Assembly: GCF_001189515.2 (NCBI RefSeq)
Contig: NZ_CP012069.2
Location: 1,860,001 to 1,924,000, forward strand
Direction of reading: 5' to 3'
Length of the DNA: 64,000 bases
Source of the DNA: Olsenella sp. oral taxon 807
GTDB lineage: Bacteria > Actinomycetota > Coriobacteriia > Coriobacteriales > Atopobiaceae
The position numbers and the translations under genes were made by a program. Below are positions 13,338 through 30,163 of this stretch, piece by piece (position 1 is the first letter of the stretch; the number at the start of each line of letters is the position of its first letter). Under the pieces are notes generated by a model that worked only from the letters and a program-made list of their open reading frames with translations, was not told the DNA's origin and made no database searches.

Positions 13338-14897
13338 ATGGCGAGGAAGATCAAGGCGAAGCTGATAACGCGGCTCCGCGAACAGGGCATGTCGAGGAGG
13401 CAGATAGCCAAGACGCGCCGCATGTCGATGGGCTCGGTCTGTGAGGTGTTCCCGGTCGCGGACGAGCGCGGCATCGGGTGGAAGGACATCGAGGGCAAAT
13501 CCGACGAGGGCGCCTGCGTCCTCCTCTGTCCCGACAGGCACGTGAGGGGAAGCGTTTTCGAGGAGCCCGACTGGGGCTACGCGCACAAGGAGATGGCCAG
13601 GGTTGGCGCGAGCCTGCGCCTACCGCGCGACGGGCACGAGGACGGGCGCGGACGCACCGGCAAGGTGGCGATGGGCCACGCGAGGTTCTGTGAGAGGCGC
13701 GGCAAGCACGTCGCCGCCAACAACCTCACCAAGCGCATCGAGCACAAGGCCGGGCAGTCCTGCGAGGTCGATTGGTCCGGGCCGACTCTCGGGAGGGGCC
13801 TTGTCGATCCCACCACGGGCGAGGTCTCCAAGATCCACCTCTTCGTGGGCGTGCTGCCCTTCAGCCAGAGGGCCTACCTCGGGCCGACGCTAGACATGAG
13901 GGAGCGCACCTGGCTCAGGTGTCACGTCCACACGTGCGAGTACTGGGGAGGCGTCCCCGAGCGCACGGTCTGCGACAACCTCAAGACTGGCGTCGTGAGG
14001 CACCCACGCGAGGGCGAGGTCGTGCCCGACGACGCCTACGAGGCGCCCGGAGAGCACCACGTGACCGCGATCATGCCCGCACAGGTGAGGAAGCCCAAGC
14101 AGAAGGCGTCTGCCGAGGGCACGGTGAGAGACGCGGCCACCTGGGTAATAGCGCAGCCGCACGACGCGACGCTCGCCGACTTCGGGCAAGCCAAGGCAGC
14201 GGTTCGCGAAAAGCTCGACGAGCGCGACGCCCACCCGTTCCAGAAGAGGCAGGGCAGCCGCGACCCGGTCTTCGCCGAGGCCGAGGCCGCCGAGCTCAGT
14301 CCCCTTCCCGACGTCCGCTACGATGTCGCCGAATGGGTCCACGGCCGCTCGGTCGCCCTCGACTCCCGCGTCGCCCACGAGCGCAACCGCTACTCCGTTC
14401 CCCACCGCTACGTCGGTCGGAAGGTGGACCTGCGCGTAGGCGAGTCGACAGTCTCAATCTACCACGCCGGAGAGCGCATAGCGACGCACAGCCTCCTGCC
14501 CGAGTACGCGGGGAACGGATACTCCACCGACAGGTCCCACATGCCGGAGGCCTTTCTGAAACCGGAATGGGACGACGCGCGCATCAGGGGCTGGGCCAAG
14601 AGGATCGGACCCTCCTGCTTCGAGGTCATCGGCAGGATCTTCGCGCGCGTCAAGGTCAAGGAGCAGGCCTACAACCCGGCGCTCTCCGTCCCCGACCTGT
14701 CGAAGAAGTATGGAGACGAGAGGCTCGAGGTCGCCTGCGCCTACGCGCTGCCTAAGCTCACCTCGCCCAGGTACAAGCACCTGAAGGCGATCCTGGACGC
14801 GAACCTCGACCAGGAGGGGCCGGCCGAGGACGGCCCCGGCGAGACGCGGGACGCGCCCAAGGGCCACGTGCGCGGCGCGGACTACTACAGAGACTAG
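13338..14897 (+). CDS. istA: IS21-family transposase IstA (inner element)
   Basis: A complete 519-aa transposase with AAAGGAG before the ATG. The N-terminal helix-turn-helix is LITRLREQGMSRRQIAKTRR. The DDE core is present: EVDWSGPTLG (first Asp), VCDNLKTGV (second Asp) and KASAEGTVRDAATWVI (Glu). A C-terminal Mu-type beta-barrel region follows. IstA cuts and joins the element ends with help from IstB, whose gene starts 10 bp downstream but is interrupted. Upstream, 13200-13300 holds three related GTTTCGC...CGTATC repeats, probable IstA binding sites at the left end. IstA looks intact, but the element is unlikely to move without IstB. Confidence 0.9.
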   Translation: MARKIKAKLITRLREQGMSRRQIAKTRRMSMGSVCEVFPVADERGIGWKDIEGKSDEGACVLLCPDRHVRGSVFEEPDWGYAHKEMARVGASLRLPRDGHEDGRGRTGKVAMGHARFCERRGKHVAANNLTKRIEHKAGQSCEVDWSGPTLGRGLVDPTTGEVSKIHLFVGVLPFSQRAYLGPTLDMRERTWLRCHVHTCEYWGGVPERTVCDNLKTGVVRHPREGEVVPDDAYEAPGEHHVTAIMPAQVRKPKQKASAEGTVRDAATWVIAQPHDATLADFGQAKAAVREKLDERDAHPFQKRQGSRDPVFAEAEAAELSPLPDVRYDVAEWVHGRSVALDSRVAHERNRYSVPHRYVGRKVDLRVGESTVSIYHAGERIATHSLLPEYAGNGYSTDRSHMPEAFLKPEWDDARIRGWAKRIGPSCFEVIGRIFARVKVKEQAYNPALSVPDLSKKYGDERLEVACAYALPKLTSPRYKHLKAILDANLDQEGPAEDGPGETRDAPKGHVRGADYYRD

Positions 14898-14907
14898 TGA
14901 GGAAGCC

Positions 14908-15239
14908 ATGATAGACGACGAGACCAGGCGCAAGCTCCGCGAGACGAGCATGTCCGAGATGGTCGACGCCCTCGACCTGCAGGAAGGGGATCGCACCATC
15001 ATGTCGGTGCCCTTCGACGAGCGCGTGAGGATGGTGGTGGACCACGCCTGGGAGGCCAAGCGCGCCTCGAGCGCGAGGCGGCTCACTCAGAGGGCCAGGC
15101 TGCGCTTCCCGGACGCCGAGCCCGGCGAGATGATCTACGACGGCCGCGGCATCGACGGCGTGCTCATACGCGAGGCGATGGCCTGCCAGTTCATGTCGCG
15201 GGCCGCCAACGTGGTGATCGAGGGCTGCACTGGAACGGG
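14908..15239 (+). pseudogene. istB: IstB helper ATPase, 5' part up to Walker A
   Basis: The ATG at 14908 has GTGAGGA upstream. The N-terminal domain is normal (MSEMVDALDLQEGDRTIMSV). The frame reaches VVIEGCTGTG, the first half of Walker A, where the RIT element begins. The second half (GKTHLAQAYGRE) resumes at 18683. Joining 15239 to 18689 restores an unbroken Walker A, G-C-T-G-T-G-K-T-H-L-A, showing that the gene was intact before insertion. Confidence 0.85.
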
Positions 15240-15240
15240 C

Positions 15241-15323
15241 AATTATGCTGAGAAACGGATTATGTCGGGGAACGGGCTGCCGCCGCAGGTCATTTGCTCG
15301 CGGCGGCCGCGTCCCCTTGCATA
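15241..15323 (+). repeat. Left terminal inverted repeat of the RIT element
   Basis: About 82 bp starting AATTATGCTGAGAAACGG; it is the near-perfect reverse complement of 18578-18660, with only a few mismatches. Confidence 0.9.
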
Positions 15324-15381
15324 GTCGAAGAGTCCCCCTGGCGTCGCGTCACCTGCTTTTTCGACAATGATAGGAGGACTT

Positions 15382-18688: not shown

Positions 18689-19159
18689 AAGACCCACCTG
18701 GCCCAGGCGTACGGTCGCGAGTGCTGTGTGAGAGGACCGAGGACGTACTACATGAAGGCCAGCGAGCCCGGGGACAGGTTCCAGAGGGCGGCGGAGCGCG
18801 GGAGCGCCCAGCGCGCGGTGGCGACGCTGGCGAGGCCGTCCTGCCTGATCGTGGACGAGGTCGGGAGGTGCGTGTTCGACAGGGCGTGCACCGACCTCTT
18901 CTTCGACGCGGTCGACCGTCGCTACGAGAAGGAGGGGCCCAACACCATGATCCTCACGAGCAACATGGCGCCGAGCTCCTGGGACGAGTTCCTCGCGGGG
19001 GACGAGGCCCTGCTCTGTGCGCTCGACAGGGCATTCGACAAGGCATCGGTCTTCATGATGCGCGGCCCGAGCTACCGCGGCCGCGGGCTCGACACCTACT
19101 CGGTCGAGGCGGTGCCGCAGGCGACGAAGGTCAGGAGGATGCAGCCCAAGGGAGTGTAG
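18683..19159 (+). pseudogene. istB: IstB helper ATPase, 3' part
   Basis: It resumes at GKTHLAQAYGRE (rest of Walker A), then CLIVDEVGRCVFD (Walker B) and TMILTSNMAPSSWDEFLAGD, and ends at 19159. An internal ATG at 18752 could give a shorter product lacking the P-loop start. It is otherwise undamaged, so excision of the RIT element would restore istB. Confidence 0.85.
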
Positions 19160-19543: not shown

Positions 19544-19688
19544 GTCTTCCCCTCTCTCGGGAGACGGGGCGACCCAGTGCGCCCCACTGGGTCAATCATG
19601 GTCGGTGATGCGTGCAGCGGCGGTCGGCGGAGCCTGGAACTGCGGTCAGTGGGAGATGGAATGCCGGTCGCTAGGGCCTGCTGTACGC

Positions 19689-19873
19689 AGACGAGGAGGG
19701 GCTCATCCTTATTGCCACACGCACGGGAAGCCACAGCGAGCTGCTGGGGCCATGAACGTCGCCAGCGTTCATAACGAGGCCTCGTTATGCCCTACCGTCA
19801 CAGGACGTAGCGCCGAGGCGCAGCGCAACGAGCCCGAGCGGTCGCGACGAAGAGCGAGGTCTACTCGCATCCC
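19689..19873 (+). repeat. 185-bp direct repeat, left copy (with yafQ 3' tail)
   Basis: Differs from 28879-29063 at about five positions. The first ~65 bp encode the end of a YafQ-type toxin (DEEGLILIATRTGSHSELLG), out of context here. The rest is non-coding, with GAGGCCTC and GAACGT/GCGTTC short palindromes. The pair bounds the 9-kb island. Confidence 0.85.
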
Positions 19874-20402
19874 CGTGGAGTAGCGCACCGGTGATGCGTG
19901 GAATCAATCATGCACCGATTGGCGCATAATATTCATTACTTGGGCGCGAGTCGGTCGAGCCGGGAGGCTTCGAGGAGGCCACGGGTCCCGCCGACGCGTC
20001 GCCACGCGCCGGCGTCCGTGCCGGCACGAATCCCGCGCGGCCGCCCTCGCACGCGCCGTGGAGCGGCTGCGGGAAGTCGGCCGCCCGCTCGGCCATCTCG
20101 CCGTGGTCGCTTCCCCCAGGCATGCAAGTCCCCGGCTCACCGTCCTTGGGCGCCGGCGCGCATGTCGTCGTGGCTCACGAGTGGCTGTCGGTTCCGAAAT
20201 ATGCACGATAAATGGCTATGGGGCTATAATCACCCGACGCTAACACCTCCCGTTGATCGTGGCACCCCGGTGCCGTCCTGCTGCGACGAAACCATTCCGG
20301 CTCACTCACTTCACGGGAGGTCCTCTTGGGACCCCGGCCCAGAAATAAGTTCCGCTCCCTCAGCTCGGGTCATATCGTCTAGAGAGTGTCATACGCAGTC
20401 GT
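19874..20402. other. Gap of about 530 bp, no gene recognised
   Basis: High-GC sequence with several overlapping open frames and no convincing ribosome site. 19915-19935 is AT-rich (GCGCATAATATTCAT) and might hold a promoter. Confidence 0.4.
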
Positions 20403-21578
20403 CTACGAATTAAGCAGTTGGGAAACTTGGTCCATGCCACAGCACCTATGGTGAGCCAAGTGGTTGCGACACTTCCGGAGGAGAAATATCCTATCCCGCA
20501 GGCCCTTCTCCTTCACATCAAGTACCCGTACCCCATCTTGGTCACAGTTCATGAGGTAGACGAGTGTTCCTAGTTCGACATCCTCCAAGGAGGTCAGCTT
20601 ATCCCCATGTTGCTCAATTCGACCTCCGTCTATTAGAGGCGAGATGGAATCACTGAGCTTCTCGACAATCAGCAGCCTTTCCCTCTCAATCATCGGAAAA
20701 AGAACCTCCAGTTGGGCGGCCCAGATCCTCTCGTCGATTGTTGCCTTGTCGCCTCGTCTTGCTACGTTCAAAACATGTCCGAAGCTTCCATGTCCGCGTG
20801 AATCAAATATGCCTGAATCAACCATCGTCGTTATCGCAACGTAGGCATCTTCTTTCCTTAGATCATGGCTCCAGACAAGCTCATGTGCGACCTCCACATC
20901 AGACCCGCAAAGGCTTGTCATCAACGCAGCAACATAACGCTTCCATACCATCTTATAGGAGTCGAATTCCTGAGAATTAAGAGTAAGACCATTGAACAAC
21001 TGGACACTGTACTCATCCACACACTCTGCATAGTCTATGATTGTGAGGTTTTGTGGAACACTGGTCTCACTGGTTCGGTCCTCAATCACGAACAATCCCT
21101 CATCAAGTGTAGAGATGTTCCATCCAGCACAGAATCGTTCCCACACCTGGGCGTCATCCACTCCCAAGCCCTTTATCCAAACAATTTTGTTGCGGAGAAC
21201 ACCTCTTCTGAGGAGATACCCCTGTCCCGACCCTCTGCTAGAGCGATAGTGTAGCGAGTCATCGCGCAAACCGAACTTATCTACCAGATACTTTCCTGGT
21301 TCATATTCACCTGGCAGATCTTCCTCAGCATCCAAAAAGGTGATAGCAAGACTCTCGGTCCCAGACGTCGACTGCAGCTCCTCGCGCAGCATGTCTCTCA
21401 TCTTGTGTCGCCAAGGAAGGTCCTGCGGTACCTTCAAGACGACGGACCGCTTGCCTTGAAGCGACGATACGGTCTTCTTGACAACTTCGTATGGTCCGAC
21501 AACACGCTGCCACCAGAATTCTGGCCAATCCTCTTCTGTGGGACTATCCCTCCTAGGCATCATTGTTAGCGATGTCAT
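20403..21578 (-). CDS. Island gene 3: 391-aa protein with C-terminal HEPN-like motif
   Basis: A soluble 391-aa protein. The start (MTSLTMMPRRDSPTEEDWPE) overlaps the 3' end of the giant ATPase gene by 26 bp, so the two are co-translated. N-terminal half: WWQRVVGPYEVVKKTVSSLQ and VVLKVPQDLPWRHKMRDML, which look like an alpha/beta fold without a P-loop. The C-terminus has DRIFLLRKCRNHLAHHRCC; RNHLAH fits the R-N-x3-H motif of HEPN domains, many of which are RNases in defence and toxin systems (established for the superfamily). I do not recognise the family. In context it could be the effector and the ATPase the sensor, an inference. Confidence 0.75.
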   Translation of the reverse strand: MTSLTMMPRRDSPTEEDWPEFWWQRVVGPYEVVKKTVSSLQGKRSVVLKVPQDLPWRHKMRDMLREELQSTSGTESLAITFLDAEEDLPGEYEPGKYLVDKFGLRDDSLHYRSSRGSGQGYLLRRGVLRNKIVWIKGLGVDDAQVWERFCAGWNISTLDEGLFVIEDRTSETSVPQNLTIIDYAECVDEYSVQLFNGLTLNSQEFDSYKMVWKRYVAALMTSLCGSDVEVAHELVWSHDLRKEDAYVAITTMVDSGIFDSRGHGSFGHVLNVARRGDKATIDERIWAAQLEVLFPMIERERLLIVEKLSDSISPLIDGGRIEQHGDKLTSLEDVELGTLVYLMNCDQDGVRVLDVKEKGLRDRIFLLRKCRNHLAHHRCCGMDQVSQLLNS

Positions 21579-24500
21579 CGAGGATCATATCTGCATCCTT
21601 GCCAATGATACTGAGAAAAGCATGTCTACGGAGTCTGTACCTCTGTGTGTCTTGATCAGGCTTGGCAAGTATGTACATGTCTACCATCTCGTCCATCAGG
21701 TTTCCGAAGGAGGAAGCGCTCTCATCTGCAAGTGTCTTGATATCCCACTCATCTGCGGTGTGTTTGACCTCAGTGGGCGAGTATCCGGCCAATGTGCCTT
21801 CCCCACCGCTCTCTTCCGCCTCATAATATAGAAGCGCGATGCAGCGCGCGATCATAAAATATCGGGGGTCAAGTTCGAGGGATAGCCTGAATTTTTCCTT
21901 AATACTGTTATTAAGGTCGGTCCTGCTCATGATTGCCCCGAGCTGTTCTTTCGTAAGTGAATAAGGAGGATTTCCATCTTGGGCACGATAGTATTCGGAG
22001 TACTGACTGGACATTGTCTCCACAAGAATGTTCCCGAAGAACTGGAGAATGCCGGGGTAATAGTTCGTGCTCGTAAGGATGGTCTCCAAGTGTGGATACC
22101 TGTCCACCTGGAACCCAAGGAACATAAGTGGACGGGAGATTAACCTCAGCGCCTCTGCGGGAGAAAGAGGCCTGATACACAAAGGTGATCCGAGCTGACC
22201 AAAAATACCATTCTTGGTAGTGGCGTTCTTCGCTCGGGAGACGTTATGGAGGCCAGCTAAGACAAATTTGAACTTGTTTTCCGACTCGCGTCGTAGCTCG
22301 ACAAGCGGTTGCAAGGGTAGATAGCCTTCGGAGCTGATAGAAGCAAGATAATTGTCTGCCTCGTCAATTAGAAGGAGGACTTTAGATACGGCTCTATCCG
22401 CCAAGATCTCTCTTATTCGGTCGCACAAATCTACGATTGAATGAACGCCGTTGAAGTCAAGCCCCGCTCTGGATGCGGCAGAGGCAAGGGTGCTGATAAG
22501 ATCTTGTTCAGTGTCGCACTGAAGAATACTCACGTACACCGCATACTCACCCTTATCGGGCTTGTTACAGAGGCTTCGCGCTCTCTGGAGGAGCGCCGTC
22601 TTACCGAGCTGTCTACCGCCGTAGACCACTCCCGCACCACTAGGATTCGTTATTGCCCTGAGCTCCTCCTCCCTACCACAGAACATCTCGTCCGCTGTGG
22701 CGCCGCCATCCCGAACAAATGGTTGATAACTAGTGAAGGGCAGGGTACACTTGAGCATCACCGAAAGTCTTGTCGCACTTTCATTCAAAGCGAGAAAAAG
22801 AATCAAGACCTGATCGATTACGAGAAAGGAAGGCATTGATGCCTGCCGCTTGTGATACAGCTCCGCAAGGGTACGCCTATCCGAGAGACTGATCGAATAA
22901 TTTACGAGAACAAAGGAGCAATTGCTGAGACCCGAATCAACGACAGCCCTAATGATATCCTGCGGCGTCTGGTTACCATAAAGTACTAGAACTTCGATCT
23001 TCTTGTTCATCTGAGTACCAAACGCCGAAATCGGGTGATCGTATGACTCACGATCACGCGAAACGGGCCGGACTTCGAGCCTATATATCTCGCGACCGAT
23101 AGAATCAGGCTTAGCAACGCCTTTGATGCTAAATCCCAATCCCTTGAATAGCTCACCGATGTTCTGGGACCAATCCTTCACCTGCCGTTTCTGACTCACG
23201 GGCCAATTCTGCACCAGTGACTCACTGTTCTTCTTCTGCCGCTCGGTCCAACTCTTTGGATACCGCTTTCTGGTAAAGTCGATGCCGTAACTAGCGAGGG
23301 GGCGGCCCTTGTACTTTCGGCAAACGTCAAATATTGTCTGATAGAACTCGCCCGAAATGAAACGGGCAAAGTCATCCTGCTCACTCATCCCAGATCTGAG
23401 CTTTTCTGTAAGTTGACGCTCACCCGATTCAAACCGGTTGAGATACTCCTCGACAACGGTGAGGTTCTTGTCTTCTCTCAGTAGCTTTTCCGCCTCATCG
23501 AGCAAGGTGGAATCGCCCCCAGATATTGAGCCCCTGCACGACGCGAGCCTTTCTTCGAGCAAAAAAGAGTGATCTGCAGAGAGGTCATCAACCTGCTTAA
23601 AAAGAGCCCTGAGAAACTCCCTCCAACAGCCATACTCCTTGACCGAGTAAAAGAGATTCTTGAATTCTCTCGCGTAAGAGGCAAGGTCCTCCTTCTGCAC
23701 CTCATTGATTCGGTTGTACGTGAAGGCAATCTCTAATTGGTCGTTGAACTTCGCCAGCTCTGCCTCTGCAGACTGTAATGCAATTGTCTTTATGTCCTTG
23801 CTCGGCTCGACAGCTTCAGCCTTATCAACCATCTTACTAATTGCAAAAAGTTGACTTAGATTGTCGAACATCGGGGAATCATCGTCACCAATTTGGTTTT
23901 TCACGTCAGTAAAGGATGGTTTATCGGCTATGTAGTGCCTCAGAACCGCTTTCCACGGCTCGCAATGGCTCACATTGCAAAGAGATCCCTCGACGACAGG
24001 CAACCCATCAACACCGGTTGGCAACAGGCCCGTTCGTAGGAAATCGCTGAAGGTTAGAACTCGACCGCAGCTACCGCTAAGTCTAGTTTTTATTTCACGG
24101 ACCGCTGTGTGTAGTGCAGTACCGCCACCTTGCTGACCGATAAACAAGTTCATGGATATGATTTCGTCGGATAGGGTGAGAAGGCTGTCCCTTATTTCAC
24201 GGATCTCCTCGATTTCACTCTCATTAACACTGCCTCTTACATGCTCAAGCCATTCTTCCATCAGCCCAAGTCGGTCATAGATTTCGTCGGAGGCTTTGCG
24301 TCGAGACTCCATGGCCAGTCTTCGAGGACCCTTGTTCCCTTTGGCGTTTATCGCCTTGCTCCATGCGTTATCAATCAGGCTCTCGATTAATCTGTCAGAA
24401 AGCTTTCCATCCACGCAGTACGCTTCAAAAACCTTTTCGACAAGAAAAGCTTTATCCTCACGTCCACGAACGATTATATCCAAACAGGGAGACAGATCAC

Positions 24501-26409
24501 TATTACTACCAAAGCATATCTGAGAGAACACTGGCAGATGACTCATCTTGGCGTTAAATTTCGGAGGCCTAAGCAGCGTTTTCGCCTTAGCCCTGATTCT
24601 ATCCATAGCTCTGCGCCTCTCAACGTCACCACCAATCCCAGCAAGGACGCTGGACGTAAAGCCACCCTCTGGAAGAATGTCACAAACATTTATTAGCTCA
24701 CTAAACAGAGGCTTTGCCCTCGAAAACGAGGGAAAAACCGTATCAAATGAGTTGAGGTAACTCTCACAGGTCTTGTACAGTTCATGGTCATAGCTGTGCT
24801 TTGGAGCAAGCAATGCCAAGCAATACGCGGCTAGCACAAACCCTTCATTTTCCTTGCTATACGTTGGAAAAGTAGATTTTATGTTAGCTCCTGTGTATTC
24901 TTCGCATTCCAAAGGCGAGTTGACTGCCAGAGAGACTTGCTCATAGAGCGCTGAGGAGTGGCCGAATTTTACCTGTCCATGTACGCTTTTTAGAAGCGTC
25001 AAAGCAGTTTCAAGGTTAACAAGGCTATCAGCACCATCATCTGATGGAATTTCTTCCATTAACCTCGTGGCGAATTTGGTAACGATTTCGTCGCTAATTT
25101 CCAAGTTTCCTCTAAGGATGCTTTCTGCCATTGCACTTAGAGATATCCTCTCCGTAGAAGGATCAGAACTGTTGTCCCTCCGACTGCCATCGGAGTCGTC
25201 GGCACGTTGCTCGATCTGCGCAACACCCGCAGACAGCTGTTCATTCCCATGAGCCTCTTTGGCAGAAATTGTCTGATCAGTTTCTGAATTGATACTTCCA
25301 CTTTCTTCGACAGACAAGTTCGGAGTACCTTTATCGTTCGATAACAACCTCTCTTGAGAACTTGCTGACTCGTTCTTTGCAACCTCCTGAATTCCGCTGT
25401 CCGTAATTACAAACAGATGAGTGACTCCACAAGCAAAGCGCTCTTCGTCTGATGGAACATCGAGAACAAAGGCATTTGTTGCACCCTCGGGAACAGAGGC
25501 TGTCCTCCTCGCAAGAATTCCCTCTACCCTAGAACCCCCAACCTCACACTGTATGACATAGTGATTGCCATCCCAGTAGCATCCTTGAAGCCGCCTGTAC
25601 AGCATCAACTTGTGTCCGGAACCCATAGATGACTCCAGAAATGAGAGAAGTACATCATTCTGCGCCAACATCTCCATGGAAGACGCCGAGGGATCACAGC
25701 CAGGTATGTTTCTCTTCGCATCTACATAGGGAAAAAACCAAGTCGACCGTGAGTGGCTGTTCATCATATTGATAACAGAGTCTTTCCTTGCAAGCTGACA
25801 GCCATCTTCACTCAGAACAAAAGCATCCGAGTTCTCAAATTCGAAGCCTGCCTTCTCAATGATTCCTTTTTGGGCTAGGTACGACGCAGAAAGTGTGACC
25901 GCATCGGGCGACAGCGATTCGTCTTTTCCGAAAACTACAACTGCAAGCCTCTGCAATGCCTCTATGGTCATACAGCGAAAGCGCGCCAGCGCGGCAAATG
26001 TAAGAGCAACGACAAGATTGGGCGATTTCAAAAGAAGTTTCTTGAAAGAACTCGAGCCAGTCCGCTTCGGTCGATTCAGATGGGGATAGGGCGCATGGAA
26101 CTCTTCCTTTACAGTGGAGACCGCGTCTTGCTCTGCATGCCCATTTGTCTCAGTAGGCACTACACTTGCACCGTCTCGTATGTTTCCTTTTTTCCCCTCA
26201 AGCCCCGCGTCACAATACTCACCGAACCGGTATATTCTTAGCGCTACTCCTTGCTGCACTCTCGTCGGATAGCTCTGCGTAATCATGTCAAGCAAATCGA
26301 TCCCCACAGTAGTCGACAAGTTATCGCACTCCAGTGCTTGGACAAATACTCTCTGCGGCTTGTATTGATCATCAATATCACCAAGGTCTTCAAGTTCCCC
26401 TGCGCTCAA
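21553..26409 (-). CDS. Island gene 2: giant P-loop ATPase, 1618 aa
   Basis: One unbroken 1618-codon frame. Residues ~130-215 look like a winged helix (MTIEALQRLAVVVFGKD ... YLAQKGIIEKAG). A low-complexity Ser/Asp/Glu linker (~345-425) and a long helical middle follow. Around 1080-1200 lies an alpha/beta domain (IGELFKGLGFSIKG ... KIEVLVLYG). The ATPase starts near 1250: Walker A GGRQLGKT (~1265) after MFCGREEELRAI, and Walker B VLLLIDEAD (~1345). The C-terminus is helical. The GREEEL-before-P-loop arrangement recalls STAND/AAA_16 NTPases used as sensors. The start is TTG 26409 (AGGG upstream); an in-frame TAG two codons earlier excludes a longer form. GC is lower than in the flanks. Confidence 0.8.
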   Translation of the reverse strand: MSAGELEDLGDIDDQYKPQRVFVQALECDNLSTTVGIDLLDMITQSYPTRVQQGVALRIYRFGEYCDAGLEGKKGNIRDGASVVPTETNGHAEQDAVSTVKEEFHAPYPHLNRPKRTGSSSFKKLLLKSPNLVVALTFAALARFRCMTIEALQRLAVVVFGKDESLSPDAVTLSASYLAQKGIIEKAGFEFENSDAFVLSEDGCQLARKDSVINMMNSHSRSTWFFPYVDAKRNIPGCDPSASSMEMLAQNDVLLSFLESSMGSGHKLMLYRRLQGCYWDGNHYVIQCEVGGSRVEGILARRTASVPEGATNAFVLDVPSDEERFACGVTHLFVITDSGIQEVAKNESASSQERLLSNDKGTPNLSVEESGSINSETDQTISAKEAHGNEQLSAGVAQIEQRADDSDGSRRDNSSDPSTERISLSAMAESILRGNLEISDEIVTKFATRLMEEIPSDDGADSLVNLETALTLLKSVHGQVKFGHSSALYEQVSLAVNSPLECEEYTGANIKSTFPTYSKENEGFVLAAYCLALLAPKHSYDHELYKTCESYLNSFDTVFPSFSRAKPLFSELINVCDILPEGGFTSSVLAGIGGDVERRRAMDRIRAKAKTLLRPPKFNAKMSHLPVFSQICFGSNSDLSPCLDIIVRGREDKAFLVEKVFEAYCVDGKLSDRLIESLIDNAWSKAINAKGNKGPRRLAMESRRKASDEIYDRLGLMEEWLEHVRGSVNESEIEEIREIRDSLLTLSDEIISMNLFIGQQGGGTALHTAVREIKTRLSGSCGRVLTFSDFLRTGLLPTGVDGLPVVEGSLCNVSHCEPWKAVLRHYIADKPSFTDVKNQIGDDDSPMFDNLSQLFAISKMVDKAEAVEPSKDIKTIALQSAEAELAKFNDQLEIAFTYNRINEVQKEDLASYAREFKNLFYSVKEYGCWREFLRALFKQVDDLSADHSFLLEERLASCRGSISGGDSTLLDEAEKLLREDKNLTVVEEYLNRFESGERQLTEKLRSGMSEQDDFARFISGEFYQTIFDVCRKYKGRPLASYGIDFTRKRYPKSWTERQKKNSESLVQNWPVSQKRQVKDWSQNIGELFKGLGFSIKGVAKPDSIGREIYRLEVRPVSRDRESYDHPISAFGTQMNKKIEVLVLYGNQTPQDIIRAVVDSGLSNCSFVLVNYSISLSDRRTLAELYHKRQASMPSFLVIDQVLILFLALNESATRLSVMLKCTLPFTSYQPFVRDGGATADEMFCGREEELRAITNPSGAGVVYGGRQLGKTALLQRARSLCNKPDKGEYAVYVSILQCDTEQDLISTLASAASRAGLDFNGVHSIVDLCDRIREILADRAVSKVLLLIDEADNYLASISSEGYLPLQPLVELRRESENKFKFVLAGLHNVSRAKNATTKNGIFGQLGSPLCIRPLSPAEALRLISRPLMFLGFQVDRYPHLETILTSTNYYPGILQFFGNILVETMSSQYSEYYRAQDGNPPYSLTKEQLGAIMSRTDLNNSIKEKFRLSLELDPRYFMIARCIALLYYEAEESGGEGTLAGYSPTEVKHTADEWDIKTLADESASSFGNLMDEMVDMYILAKPDQDTQRYRLRRHAFLSIIGKDADMILDDIANNDA

Positions 26410-26482
26410 TGATCCCTAGTTCTTTCTGATTGTAGAACTACCGCCTGATCAAACCAAAGAAAATCGAGAAAATCGCAGGTCG

Positions 26483-26500
26483 AGGCCCCAAGGGGCCTCT
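26483..26500 (+). terminator. Hairpin guarding the transposase gene
   Basis: GAGGCCCC, AA, GGGGCCTC, then TCTTG, 63 bp before the transposase start. It could block read-through from outside promoters, a common device in insertion sequences. Confidence 0.5.
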
Positions 26501-26562
26501 CTTGTGCTATATTATATGTAGTGCTACTTACTACTTCCTGTGTGGCACGGGAGGCGACCGGG

Positions 26563-28179
26563 ATGCCGTTCATAAAGGTGCAGAAGCTGGTCAGGGACGA
26601 GTCCGGCGCAATCAGGAGCGGGTCCGCCGCCGTGGTCGACACGTCGTACGTGCGCGGCGCCAAGTACCACTCGGCGCAGGCGGTGCGCGAGAGGCTGGGC
26701 AAGGTCGTCTGGCTCGCGGACGACAGGCGCTCGGGCGTGTTCGCGTCACCGACGCGCGGCCTGGTGGAGTACGACGCGGACGCCGACGGATTCGCGCCGG
26801 TGGCCAAGGGCGACGAGCGGCTGGCGAACACGGGCGCGTTCCCCGAGCCGCCGCGGCACCTGGAGCTCGGCCCCGAGCACCTGCTGCTGTCGTTCCTGGG
26901 CGCCGATGGGGTCGCGGGGTGCCTCAGGGAGGCGCTCCCCGACGACCGGTCCTACCAGCGCGCCCTCGCCCACGTCACGCACGGCGTGGTGCGGGACGGG
27001 AGCCGCGAGACCTGCGACAACATGGTGGCCAGGTCCTTCGCGGCTCTGGCGCTGCCGGGCGTGCCGCCCGCGTCGCTGAGATCGGACACGGCGTTCTTCT
27101 CGGCGATGGGCGCCGACGGGGCGAAGGTCGCGTTCTTCAGGGCGTTCGCCAGGCTCATGAGGAGGACGAAGCCCGGCTTCGGCCGCGCATGCTACGTGGA
27201 CTCCACCCCGCTCCCGAACGACGCGGTCGACAACCCGCTCAACGCCCTCTGCAGCCACGGGCTGAGGGGCGCGGCGGTCCAGATGCGCCTCGCGCTCGTG
27301 CTCGACGAGACGACGGGGCTGCCCGTCTGGTACGAGGTCGTGCCCGGCAACGTACTTGACCTCTCGACCATAAAGACCGTGATGGGCGACGTCCTCGCCA
27401 CGCTCGGCATCGAGGTCGTAACCGCGGTCCTCGACGCGGGCTACGCGTCGCGCGAGCTGCTCGAGGCCTTCTCCGAGGGCGAGAGGGACGTGCTGGTCAG
27501 GATGCCGGCGAGGAGGGGGTACCCGTACCGCGAGCTCTGGCGGGGCGTCCGCTCTCTGATCGGCAAGGGCAAGTACGCGATCACGCGCTCCGGCCACCTC
27601 TACTTCGCCAGGAGGCGCGACGTCGAGGTGCAGGGCGTGAGGCTGCACTGCTACGTCTACGTGGACCAGACCAACGCCACGCCGCGCTTCGCCAGGTGGC
27701 TGGACAAGAACCAGGAGAGGTTCGACGGGATGTCGCTCGCCGAGAAGGACTGGGAGACCGTGCGGCAGGGCTACTTCGTGCTGATGTCCACCAAGGTCGC
27801 GACGCCCCGCGAGATCCTGGACGAGTACTTCTGCCGCACCGAGATCGAGGGCGTCTTCAAGACCAGCAAGGACTACCTGGGCCTGCTGCCGCTGCGCAAG
27901 TGGAGCGACCTCACCGTGCGCGGCAAGATCCTCGCCGACATCATCGGCACCATCGTGGTGCTCAGGATGCGCAAGGCGCTCGCCGGGGCCGACGTCTCCC
28001 TCACCGAGGTATGGGGCAAGGCCAGGTCGCTGTCCTGCTACACCAACGCCGACGGCAGGGTCGTGGTCGAGACGCCGTCGAGGCAGGTCCGCGAGTACTA
28101 CAAGGCGCTCGGGGTGAAGGTGCCCTCGTCAATCGACGTCAGGGAATTCGACCGTGACGTCCTCGGCCTGGAGCTGTAG
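26563..28179 (+). CDS. IS1634-type DDE transposase
   Basis: 538 aa from the ATG at 26563, with GGGAGG eight bases upstream; the earlier in-frame start at 26521 has no such site. DDE residues are visible: CYVDSTPLPNDAVDNP (Asp), VTAVLDAGYASRELLEAF (Asp) and YFCRTEIEGVFKTSKDYLGL (Glu in the YREKDXIE-like helix). The length and the LPVWYEVVPGN motif fit IS1634 within the IS4 superfamily. The frame is intact and ends inside the right inverted repeat, so this copy may still be active and is much younger than the IS21/RIT wreckage. Confidence 0.88.
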   Translation: MPFIKVQKLVRDESGAIRSGSAAVVDTSYVRGAKYHSAQAVRERLGKVVWLADDRRSGVFASPTRGLVEYDADADGFAPVAKGDERLANTGAFPEPPRHLELGPEHLLLSFLGADGVAGCLREALPDDRSYQRALAHVTHGVVRDGSRETCDNMVARSFAALALPGVPPASLRSDTAFFSAMGADGAKVAFFRAFARLMRRTKPGFGRACYVDSTPLPNDAVDNPLNALCSHGLRGAAVQMRLALVLDETTGLPVWYEVVPGNVLDLSTIKTVMGDVLATLGIEVVTAVLDAGYASRELLEAFSEGERDVLVRMPARRGYPYRELWRGVRSLIGKGKYAITRSGHLYFARRRDVEVQGVRLHCYVYVDQTNATPRFARWLDKNQERFDGMSLAEKDWETVRQGYFVLMSTKVATPREILDEYFCRTEIEGVFKTSKDYLGLLPLRKWSDLTVRGKILADIIGTIVVLRMRKALAGADVSLTEVWGKARSLSCYTNADGRVVVETPSRQVREYYKALGVKVPSSIDVREFDRDVLGLEL

Positions 28180-28188
28180 TTCTACAAT

Positions 28189-28612
28189 TAGCGTCATCTA
28201 GGGATGATCTAAGCGCCTGAAGCGATTCCGACGCTGTCTTCTTGAAGGGCTTAAGGGCCTCCTCGAATGCTTCGGTGTCGGATGTAACCGAGCAGAACTT
28301 GCGTAGCATTTCAATTATCGGAGCAATTCGCTCGAAAAGCCTCTCCCTCTCAATCGTGACCGCAGCATCTCTGTACACCTGAATTGGAAGGCCATCTTCC
28401 ATAATGCCATCTGGACTAGCATCAGAAATCGCAAAAGAGCGTGCCTCGTCATAAGCAATTCTCAGCTCTTGCATGTCGGAATACAGATTATCGATATCCT
28501 CGCTCATCGGAGCGATTCCGGAACCGACCATTCGCATCGCTGTCTCAAGGGCGTCTTTAATGGACGTGGCAAGAGCCTCGAAGCGTGCGAACGTTTTGTC
28601 GTAATCAGCCAT
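28189..28612 (-). pseudogene. Island gene 1: small helical protein, 3' end cut by the IS
   Basis: The ATG at 28612 opens MADYDKTFARFEALATSIKD; 141 residues remain before the insertion sequence, after which 17 foreign residues are added. The protein is almost all helix, with likely coiled coils (VTIERERLFERIAPIIEMLR). It has no known motif. Beyond the IS, the sequence leading to the giant gene carries open frames that would have ended over its TTG start, so genes 1, 2 and 3 probably formed one operon. Whether the shortened protein works is unknown. The IS also separates genes 2 and 3 from the promoter upstream of gene 1. Confidence 0.65.
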
Positions 28613-28754
28613 CAATATCCCCCAAGAACAATCAAATAAACCTATTTTAAGTATATCGTAATTATTTTGCAACAACAGCCACACCGTTCCATAGACCACT
28701 GCCACGCAGCTCCACATAGCACTGCCACACCATTGCAGCCACAGCAAGCAGTTA

Positions 28755-28944
28755 CTTCAAGGCGCTCCAGCGAAGGGAAAGCCTTCCCGAGGTGGCGCGC
28801 GACCATTCCCTGGGCGGAGCGTATCGAGGACATCGCGAATGCCATATCGAACCCGATTGGCTCCTCATTTATCGTATCGACGAGGAGGGGCTCATCCTTA
28901 TTGCCACACGCACGGGAAGCCACAGCGAGCTGCTGGGGCTATGA
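28755..28944 (+). pseudogene. YafQ-type mRNA-interferase toxin, C-terminal fragment
   Basis: The frame reads SLPEVARDHSLGGAYRGHRE, then CHIEPDWLLIYRIDEEGLIL and IATRTGSHSELLGL, stop at 28942. This is the conserved back of YafQ/RelE toxins, including the catalytic His (CHIEPDW) and the terminal GSHSELL. About 30 N-terminal residues and the antitoxin gene are missing. The last 22 codons are duplicated at 19689. No other frame in the track shows it. Confidence 0.8.
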
Positions 28945-29063
28945 ACGTCGCCAGCGTTCATGGCGAGGCCTCGTTATGCCCTACTGTCACAGGTCGTAGC
29001 GCCGAGGCGCAGCGCAACGAGCCCGAGCGGTCGCGACGAAGAGCGAGGTCTACTCGCATCCCC
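28879..29063 (+). repeat. 185-bp direct repeat, right copy
   Basis: Same orientation as 19689-19873, about 97% identical. It starts inside the toxin fragment and ends in the non-coding DNA after it. Confidence 0.85.
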
Positions 29064-29537: not shown

Positions 29538-29861
29538 CTACCTATGACGCTCGCCCGATGCGGTTGCCAGCTGGCTCCAGGGCCTTATCTTGTCGAGCTC
29601 TTCGCTCATCCTCATACGCGCGAGGTCGGTGTCATACGCGGCCTGGACACGTAGCCAGTAGCCATCGCTGAGTCCGAAGAACCTGCAGAGCCTGAGGTCC
29701 GTGTCCGCAGTCACGGAGCGCTTGCCCGACACGATCTCGCCGATGCGCGTCGCCGGTACGCCGATTTCCTTCGCCAGACGGTACTTCGTTATGCCCATCG
29801 GCTCAAGGAACTCCTCCTCGAGCAGTTCACCGGGCGCCACGGGATCGATCGCCTCGTCCAT
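29538..29861 (-). CDS. higA: HigA-type antitoxin
   Basis: A 107-aa XRE-family protein. PGELLEEEFLEPMGITKYRL and GVPATRIGEIVSGKRSVTAD form the helix-turn-helix typical of HigA/VapI antitoxins, which neutralise the toxin and repress their own operon. The gene follows higB by 17 bp with GGAGG plus GAGGGGG before its ATG. This toxin-first order is the usual one for hig loci. The C-terminal tail (SEELDKIRPWSQLATASGER) is slightly longer than in short HigA forms. Confidence 0.92.
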   Translation of the reverse strand: MDEAIDPVAPGELLEEEFLEPMGITKYRLAKEIGVPATRIGEIVSGKRSVTADTDLRLCRFFGLSDGYWLRVQAAYDTDLARMRMSEELDKIRPWSQLATASGERHR

Positions 29862-29878
29862 TCCCCCTCACCTCCCGT

Positions 29879-30157
29879 TTAGTGGTAATCCACGATCTCT
29901 ACGTCTTTCGGACCCGCATCGCTCCACACGAAGCAGATGCGGCATTGGTCGCTTATCCGGATGCTGTGCCGCCCTTTCCTGTCGCCTCTCAGAGCCTCGA
30001 GTCGGTTCCCCGGAGGAACTCTCAGATCGTTGATAGTTCCGGCGGCCTGAAGTTGGCGGAGCCTCCTCAGGGCGATACGCTCGAACGCCTCGAAGCGCTT
30101 TACGCGCGTGTTGGAGGCGAGCCGCTCCGTATCCGAATCTTTGAACGAAACTATCAT
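29879..30157 (-). CDS. higB: HigB-type toxin (RelE/ParE fold)
   Basis: 92 aa starting MIVSFKDSDTERLASN. Conserved parts: ERIALRRLRQLQAAGTINDL, PPGNRLEALRGDRKGRHSIR and QCRICFVWSDAGPKDVEIVD, with the RxSIRISxxxRICF core of HigB. HigB cuts mRNA on the ribosome (established for the family). An in-frame ATG lies two codons upstream, but the promoter's -10 box ends right before it, so transcription should start at about 30157, the A of the inner ATG. I therefore chose 30157; the mRNA would be leaderless. Confidence 0.9.
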   Translation of the reverse strand: MIVSFKDSDTERLASNTRVKRFEAFERIALRRLRQLQAAGTINDLRVPPGNRLEALRGDRKGRHSIRISDQCRICFVWSDAGPKDVEIVDYH

Positions 30158-30163
30158 GAACAT

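Follow-up and report, generated by a model that had tools for sequence, protein, structure and literature searches.

A giant ATPase gene interrupted by an insertion sequence

We analyzed a 64,000-nucleotide stretch of the Olsenella sp. oral taxon 807 genome (contig NZ_CP012069.2, positions 1,860,001 to 1,924,000; hereafter the window, with positions counted from its first letter), and focused on a locus encoding a giant ATPase and, directly downstream, a 391-amino-acid (aa) HEPN-type protein, termed here the effector or partner. The original prediction described a three-gene operon packed on one strand, made of a small helical gene, a giant P-loop gene and the 391-aa gene. Our analysis revealed a two-gene operon whose first gene is broken by an insertion sequence (IS). 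The features of the locus are as follows:

20403..21578, minus strand: effector gene, 391 aa, from the list of open reading frames (ORFs)
20451..20468, minus strand: RNHLAH motif, aa 371-376 of the effector, from the ORF translation and alignment
21553..26413, minus strand: main part of the giant ATPase gene, 3' of the IS (ORF 21553..26409 plus one duplication copy)
21556..23229, minus strand: conserved C-terminal module of the giant, with an alpha/beta region, a STAND/ORC AAA+ ATPase and a winged-helix region (ORF aa 1061-1618)
22597..22620, minus strand: Walker A of the giant, GGRQLGKT
22354..22377, minus strand: Walker B of the giant, LLIDEADN
26409..26413, no strand: target-site duplication ATGAT, left copy
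26414..28203, plus strand: IS1634-like element, 1,790 bp, transposase ORF 26521..28179, inside the giant gene
28204..28208, no strand: target-site duplication ATGAT, right copy
28204..28612, minus strand: N-terminal coding part of the giant, about 135 codons

The main giant ORF encodes 1618 aa and, as the original prediction noted, overlaps the effector ORF by 26 bp (20403..21578 and 21553..26409). Both ORFs lie on the minus strand, but the predicted one-strand packing does not extend to the whole locus, since the IS, which separates the giant from the small helical gene, is on the opposite strand.

The inserted element is of the IS1634-like kind, having a related DDE transposase, terminal inverted repeats and a short duplication. 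Its 552-aa transposase ORF matched DDE_Tnp_1 (1.5e-12) and the NCBIfam model for IS1634, NF033559 (3.4e-24), with 85.7 bits, which is under the curated cut-off of 100. The termini are inverted (CCCTAG...CTAGGG), and ATGAT flanks both sides as a 5-bp duplication. A search of the same genome found 10 copies with 99–100% identity. Aligned on their ends, 9 of the 10 are 1,790 bp long and one is 1,781 bp; a perfect 5-bp duplication is present in 9/10. An alternative boundary, with the ends at an inner repeat and a duplication of 2 bp, was ruled out, since all 10 copies end at CCCTAG/CTAGGG. Because the copies are nearly identical, the insertion is recent. The ten copies, nine with perfect duplications, also point to a recent burst of the element in this genome.

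Removal of the IS in silico left an empty site with a single ORF of 1,754 codons that joins both pieces. The small ORF matched the giants of RUG12341 (E 6e-12), an uncultured Coriobacteriaceae, and of Faecalibacterium sp. An121 (2e-9) at their N-termini; its best score was 55.8 bits, while 60 shuffles gave at most 31.2. In these two relatives the giant is a single ORF, of 1,886 and 1,813 codons, respectively, with the N-terminal part included. This part is weakly conserved among relatives (24–30% identity), and in the window its ATG is preceded by GGGGG. Since removal of the IS restores one ORF, and relatives carry an unsplit giant, there are two genes and not three. The three-gene operon is therefore ruled out by the IS ends, the duplication, the empty-site ORF and the N-terminal homology, and what had been called the small helical gene encodes the N-terminus of the giant. 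An insertion sequence can mimic extra gene structure.

The giant and its partner recur as an adjacent pair

Next, we searched for relatives of the two proteins. Among 396 genomes of the class, the giant had matches in 7 and the effector in 2, the source genome being included in both counts. Only one match covered most of the giant (residues 466–1606), and it came from a genome of the same family as the source (G353). A pattern-based scan of a species-genome collection returned two loci, those of An121 and RUG12341. In both, the effector gene lies directly after the giant and carries RNKLAH or RNSLAH; their giants share 36% and 33% identity with that of the window, and their effectors 37% and 30% (An121 and RUG12341, respectively). 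With the An121 giant as a tblastn query against 72,556 plasmid records, 27 records matched, none with coverage above 80%. A Salinibacter giant also matched 27 records, with matching genus tallies among those listed. We read 19 of the 27; the remaining 8 are of the same species or genera. A profile of the conserved module, searched against 396 genomes of the phylum, matched 39; in 8 the match was strong (E < 1e-100, source included), and the six new strong-match loci were read. The weak rows (31 of the 39 genomes) were not taken as family members, since they match only short stretches around the P-loop. Full-length giants were also present in two of five viral-labelled contigs (L068, L069).

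The resulting collection comprised 36 loci, with L011 and L029, which are one contig, counted once. Six loci with a truncated or frame-broken module or ORF were dropped (L070, L071, L072, L080, L086, L089), leaving 30 with a full-length giant. An R-x4-H motif was found near the end of the gene directly downstream of 16 of these giants; the window partner entered this count via an overlapping RKCRNH. A profile built from the 16 partners and run over the 36 loci with their 2,485 ORFs detected four more genes (E 8e-47 to 3e-28), all of them directly downstream of giants and motif-bearing (RRGMAH in one). At maximum sensitivity and E 0.01, it matched no other ORF among the 2,485. Because the 16 were picked by position and motif, the matches of the profile to its own members are circular, and the test consists of leave-out runs and the four untrained matches. 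When single partners were left out, 16/16 were recovered at 1.5e-20 or better, with those of L012–L014 supporting each other. When groups were left out, the window trio (3/3, 1.8e-20 to 3.7e-14) and the actinobacterial partners (5/5, 8.8e-23 to 1.4e-5) were recovered. With an hhalign probability of 0.2%, the L012–L014 partners were not accepted as related to the window effector by profile, and were counted by position and motif only. Overall, 20 of the 30 full-length giants have a downstream HEPN-type partner, 17 being profile-homologous and 3 assigned by position and motif only. The Salinibacter partner, searched by tblastn against the plasmids, matched five records (its own included), and 5/5 lay beside a giant match, in two of the five at no better than E 2e-3. 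In conclusion, adjacent genes for a giant and a HEPN-type protein are found repeatedly, in more than one phylum.

The window effector had no match in the plasmid records at E 1e-5 and none in the viral contigs. The window giant had none in phages at E 1e-3, and the profile of the giant pair had none in the viral contigs. Two Streptomyces plasmid giants (L080:8995-11866 and L086:7599-10063) are broken into overlapping-frame fragments, so the giant gene may have been lost repeatedly. In Coriobacteriia, genes with transglutaminase, PP2C, FHA and RyR domains stand ahead of a related giant (L013:747-15994, and similarly L012 and L014), which is accompanied by a gene with RNNVSH (L013) or RNAVVH (L014).

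Domain architecture of the two proteins

The C-terminus of the giant matched AAA_22 (1.1e-10), in agreement with the P-loop STAND-like ATPase originally proposed. The structure model of residues 560–1618 had a poor mean predicted local distance difference test (pLDDT) of 61.8, with values mostly of 70–90 from about residue 1080. It resembled the archaeal STAND-type ATPase 2qen (Foldseek 1.3e-7; Z 17.5 over 312 residues, 4.3 Å), plant NLR resistosomes (Z ~15) and BrxC 9zdx (Z 12.6). A strict Walker A pattern is present in 27 of the 30 full-length giants, and both strict Walker patterns in 20. Judged from the model, the giant ends in an active-type STAND/ORC AAA+ ATPase. The ATPase alignment holds an invariant arginine after an LHNV-like segment, and no residue was assigned as a finger in giant or partner. 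No Pfam nSTAND model matched among the giants scanned.

The effector has a STAND/ORC-like domain at about aa 15–260, followed by a HEPN-type domain at about aa 278–390. Its model (five sequences) had a mean pLDDT of 79.6, with about 80–95 in the helical HEPN-type domain. The fold of residues ~11–279 resembles ORC1, CED-4 and NLR chains (best Z 10.3 over 211 residues, 5.3 Å). By pattern scan, a P-loop upstream of the HEPN motif is absent in 20/20 partners. Jointly, the predicted fold class, the missing P-loop and the published precedent described below indicate that the partner carries an inactive STAND-like domain.

The RNHLAH motif of the original prediction lies near the end of the effector (aa 371–376) and agrees with a trait of Swt1-like HEPN domains, R-x4-6-H in a helical domain. 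In the alignment of the 17 homologues, the R and H of the motif, plus one E, are invariant. Eight of the 17 domains matched the Pfam family HEPN_Swt1 at a permissive limit (best E 0.0026); other HEPN-type matches were to DUF4145 (two domains), HepT-like, Abi_2 and HEPN_MAE_28990 (one each). The window protein is assigned to HEPN by homology only and is a predicted RNase.

Several candidate identities were rejected. The PADLOC models PD-T4-5 and PD-T4-2_B matched one partner too weakly (E 0.008 and 0.018). In the Protein Data Bank, the HEPN profile hit a designed protein (E 0.011) and Cas13a (E ~0.9), and the window HEPN domain hit internalin J (E 0.012); all three were judged to be chance. HEPN chains were not among the fold matches of the effector, whose lists were filled by the STAND part and hence are uninformative.

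Modular variants of the giant

Four giants (L033, L069, L081, L085) have pPIWI_RE domains at their N-terminus, each with a HEPN-motif partner. In the partners of L081 and L085, a kinase-like AAA_33 domain follows HEPN (4.4e-14 and 3.2e-11, respectively). The L079 partner has a weak AAA_33 match, and its giant has no pPIWI_RE match; in the L033 partner a P-loop is located after the HEPN motif. A cyanobacterial plasmid giant (L030:7741-14610) begins with sigma-70 regions 1.2 to 4, and the gene after it encodes a PLD-SNF2 helicase; another giant is followed by a DinG- and DEAD-type helicase gene. DrmE_C, a DISARM protein domain, was found in the genes after two giants (2.5e-11 and 1.5e-12):

L037:14415-17249 and L088:11415-14234, Burkholderia and Cupriavidus: DrmE_C genes

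Pfam scans revealed no GT4 effector in five non-HEPN neighbours (L030, L036, L037, L078, L088) and none in seven HEPN-type partners (window, L013, L031, L032, L079, L081, L085); neighbours of L034, L074, L082, L084 and L087 were left out of the scan.

We tentatively suggest that the C-terminal alpha/beta-STAND-winged-helix module could be a general immune platform, on which N-terminal sensors and neighbouring executors are interchangeable. The sensors would include uncharacterised regions, as in the window, pPIWI_RE nucleases and a sigma factor. The executors would include the inactive STAND-HEPN protein, the same protein with a kinase-like domain, DrmE-like proteins, and PLD- or DinG-type helicases. 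Our literature search found no paper joining 'pPIWI-RE' with 'STAND NTPase' and none on a shared modular platform; the terms HEPN, AAA and ATPase are all absent from the main text of the paper that first described pPIWI-RE (PMC3702460).

Genomic context and boundaries of the segment

Next to the RUG12341 pair is a gene of 1,377 aa that encodes Eco57I and ResIII domains, and the An121 pair lies among ORFs that resemble, by eye, type I specificity and methylase genes. At four separate loci, plasmid copies are near DUF3320; UvrD and PD-(D/E)XK; ThiF and patatin; and an N-6 DNA methylase. Several pairs are thus near restriction or other defence genes, as the original prediction would have it, and these neighbours suggest a role in defence.

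In the window, the segment is bounded by direct repeats:

19690..19874, no strand: direct repeat, 185 bp, left copy
28879..29063, no strand: direct repeat, 185 bp, right copy, 97% identical to the left

The two copies are 9,189 bp apart and, by the ORF list and the model scans of the segment between them, enclose only the IS, the giant and the effector as recognised elements. No third copy of the repeat was found in the 3.21-Mb genome when searched with the repeat region. The G+C content is 0.50 in the effector ORF and 0.49 in the giant ORF, and 0.69 (13.0–19.6 kb) and 0.64 (29.1–39.0 kb) in the flanks. Both the bounding repeats and the lower G+C content were already described in the original prediction.

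Outside the left repeat, the adjoining 40 bp (window 19650-19689) recur once, on the other strand (G000:C1:1955807-1955846). Further left, by eye, are IS21-like IstA/IstB ORFs (13338-15324) and an IstB-like remnant (18728-19159). At window 28750-28944 there is, by eye, a remnant of a RelE/YafQ-type toxin (...HIEPDWLLIYRI...), whose 3' end is overlapped by the right repeat; the left repeat contains the last codons of this RelE/YafQ-like remnant. Two minus-strand ORFs beyond the right repeat (29538-30163) appear by eye to be a HigA-HigB antitoxin-toxin pair.

Relation to known systems

Among published descriptions, the nearest to the pair is nSTAND2, a mobile two-gene operon predicted by Kaur et al. 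2021 (PMC8195603), in which one STAND protein is active and the other inactive. In the section devoted to it, the inactive STAND is most often fused to GT4 or HEPN, and an arginine finger is expected in both proteins; this section gives no protein sizes and mentions no pPIWI_RE or sigma-70 fusions. As in nSTAND2, two adjacent or overlapping genes are present in the window (IS discounted), An121 and RUG12341. The giant is an active STAND NTPase by its Walker A and B motifs, AAA_22 match and modelled STAND/ORC fold, and the second protein is a predicted inactive STAND fused to HEPN (the latter by homology in the window copy). Unlike in nSTAND2 as that section describes it, GT4 effectors were not seen in our scans. 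Because the window pair fits the operon, the active and inactive STAND and the HEPN features described there, it likely belongs to nSTAND2, as judged by the published description. The nSTAND2 literature search returned no other relevant paper, and no experimental test of the predicted two-gene STAND/HEPN design was found in the literature searched.

Other systems share parts of this design. In the part of PMC12839542 that treats them, Type-1 BR / DUF499 systems (called Hma by others) also link an ORC/STAND-type AAA+ ATPase to a HEPN endoRNase. In those systems the active ATPase itself carries the HEPN domain and the core includes a helicase and a methylase, whereas our HEPN belongs to a second, inactive STAND protein, and neither methylase nor helicase was recognised between the 185-bp repeats. 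The same part of that paper places BrxB, an inactive STAND, beside the active ORC-type ATPase BrxC in BREX; BrxB is described without HEPN, and BREX core genes, such as those for PglZ and the methylase, were not seen between the repeats. The giant resembles NLR-like STAND immune proteins (resistosomes, CED-4, Avs) in its modelled STAND fold, but here a second, inactive STAND protein bears the effector. For Dnd (in sections of PMC10853773) and BREX (PMC12839542), a related logic built from different components has been described, and other inactive-STAND systems are covered in parts of PMC7159879. The HEPN survey PMC3710099 includes HEPN-STAND fusions, and among the passages listed none names the present pair.

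Proposed function and alternatives

On balance, and with modest confidence, we favour a horizontally spread two-gene immune pair of the abortive-infection type, in which an ATPase switch would control an RNase effector. The original prediction of a defence system of giant ATPase and HEPN protein is upheld in that the pair recurs and several copies are near defence genes, but not in its gene number. It had overlooked the IS, the inactive STAND-like domain within the HEPN protein, and the gene break that makes function in the source strain doubtful.

Herein, we describe how such a pair might act, by analogy with STAND switches. The whole giant, of about 1,750 aa, would be an NTP-dependent switch, whose variable N-terminal and helical regions may sense an invader-linked signal. 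On the trigger, the giant would bind ATP and form an assembly through its C-terminal STAND/ORC ATPase. The inactive STAND of the effector could join this assembly, and would hold HEPN off before activation. Upon activation, the HEPN domains would be released or clustered, leading to RNHLAH-dependent RNA cleavage. The cleavage would cause growth stop or cell death, thereby limiting the phage.

If the pair had no phage-specific role, then it might instead be a stress RNase switch of the toxin-antitoxin type, in which the ATPase restrains the HEPN protein and frees it on stress or plasmid loss. HEPN toxins are common in toxin-antitoxin pairs, homologues of the pair are on plasmids, and toxin-antitoxin-like ORFs are found by eye beside the segment. 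We consider this unlikely, since a protein as big as the giant, with its extensive variable N-terminal region, would be a costly antitoxin, some giants are fused to pPIWI_RE, and several copies are near restriction or other defence genes.

A separate question is whether the immune pair still works in Olsenella. Because the giant is without its first ~135 residues, the system in the source strain is probably inactive or altered. The split giant might remain functional if its main part is translated from a TTG at the IS junction, with the N-terminal piece dispensable or acting in trans. A TTG after AGGG, the open frame downstream of the IS and the weak conservation of the N-terminal part agree with this. 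We nevertheless find it quite doubtful: the insertion is recent, so the open frames may merely reflect its youth, and other giants are single ORFs.

Mobile-element DNA handling, with an ORC-, TnsC- or MuB-like AAA+ protein choosing target or replication sites and a structural HEPN-like domain, is highly improbable: it would suit the fold matches to ORC, TnsC and MuB, the wing-helix region after the ATPase and the mobile, also plasmid-borne copies, but these folds are one broad AAA+ clade and do not discriminate, the HEPN R and H are invariant in 17/17 homologues, and in the gene tables examined the pairs have no recurrent transposase or replication gene as a neighbour.

Several observations weigh against the immune pair itself. 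Ten of the 30 giants are without a recognised HEPN partner, and leaving out L012–L014 as a group recovered 0/3 of their partners. The HEPN domain of the window had no Pfam match at E 10, and among the 17 domains 8 unrelated Pfam families were also matched, by one member each. Foldseek with the effector gave no match at E 0.001, the best being 1.6e-3. PADLOC has no model that matches the effector, and the best match of the giant, PDC-S27 (E 0.018), is too weak to give its identity. The defence-gene context was read off gene tables without a control set, and the giant gene is interrupted in the source genome.

In conclusion, the window carries a broken copy of a real, widespread two-gene system, which probably has an immune role. 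An unannotated pair of giant ATPase and HEPN protein, unrecognised by the PADLOC models used, is tied to a design that was once predicted, and intact relatives exist that allow a direct phage test. The source copy is of moderate interest locally, and the modularity of the family is more interesting. To judge from the pPIWI_RE fusions, the same switch may be operated by a sensor that binds nucleic acids. If the suggested platform is true, pPIWI_RE, DISARM-like and HEPN systems would run on one common switch.

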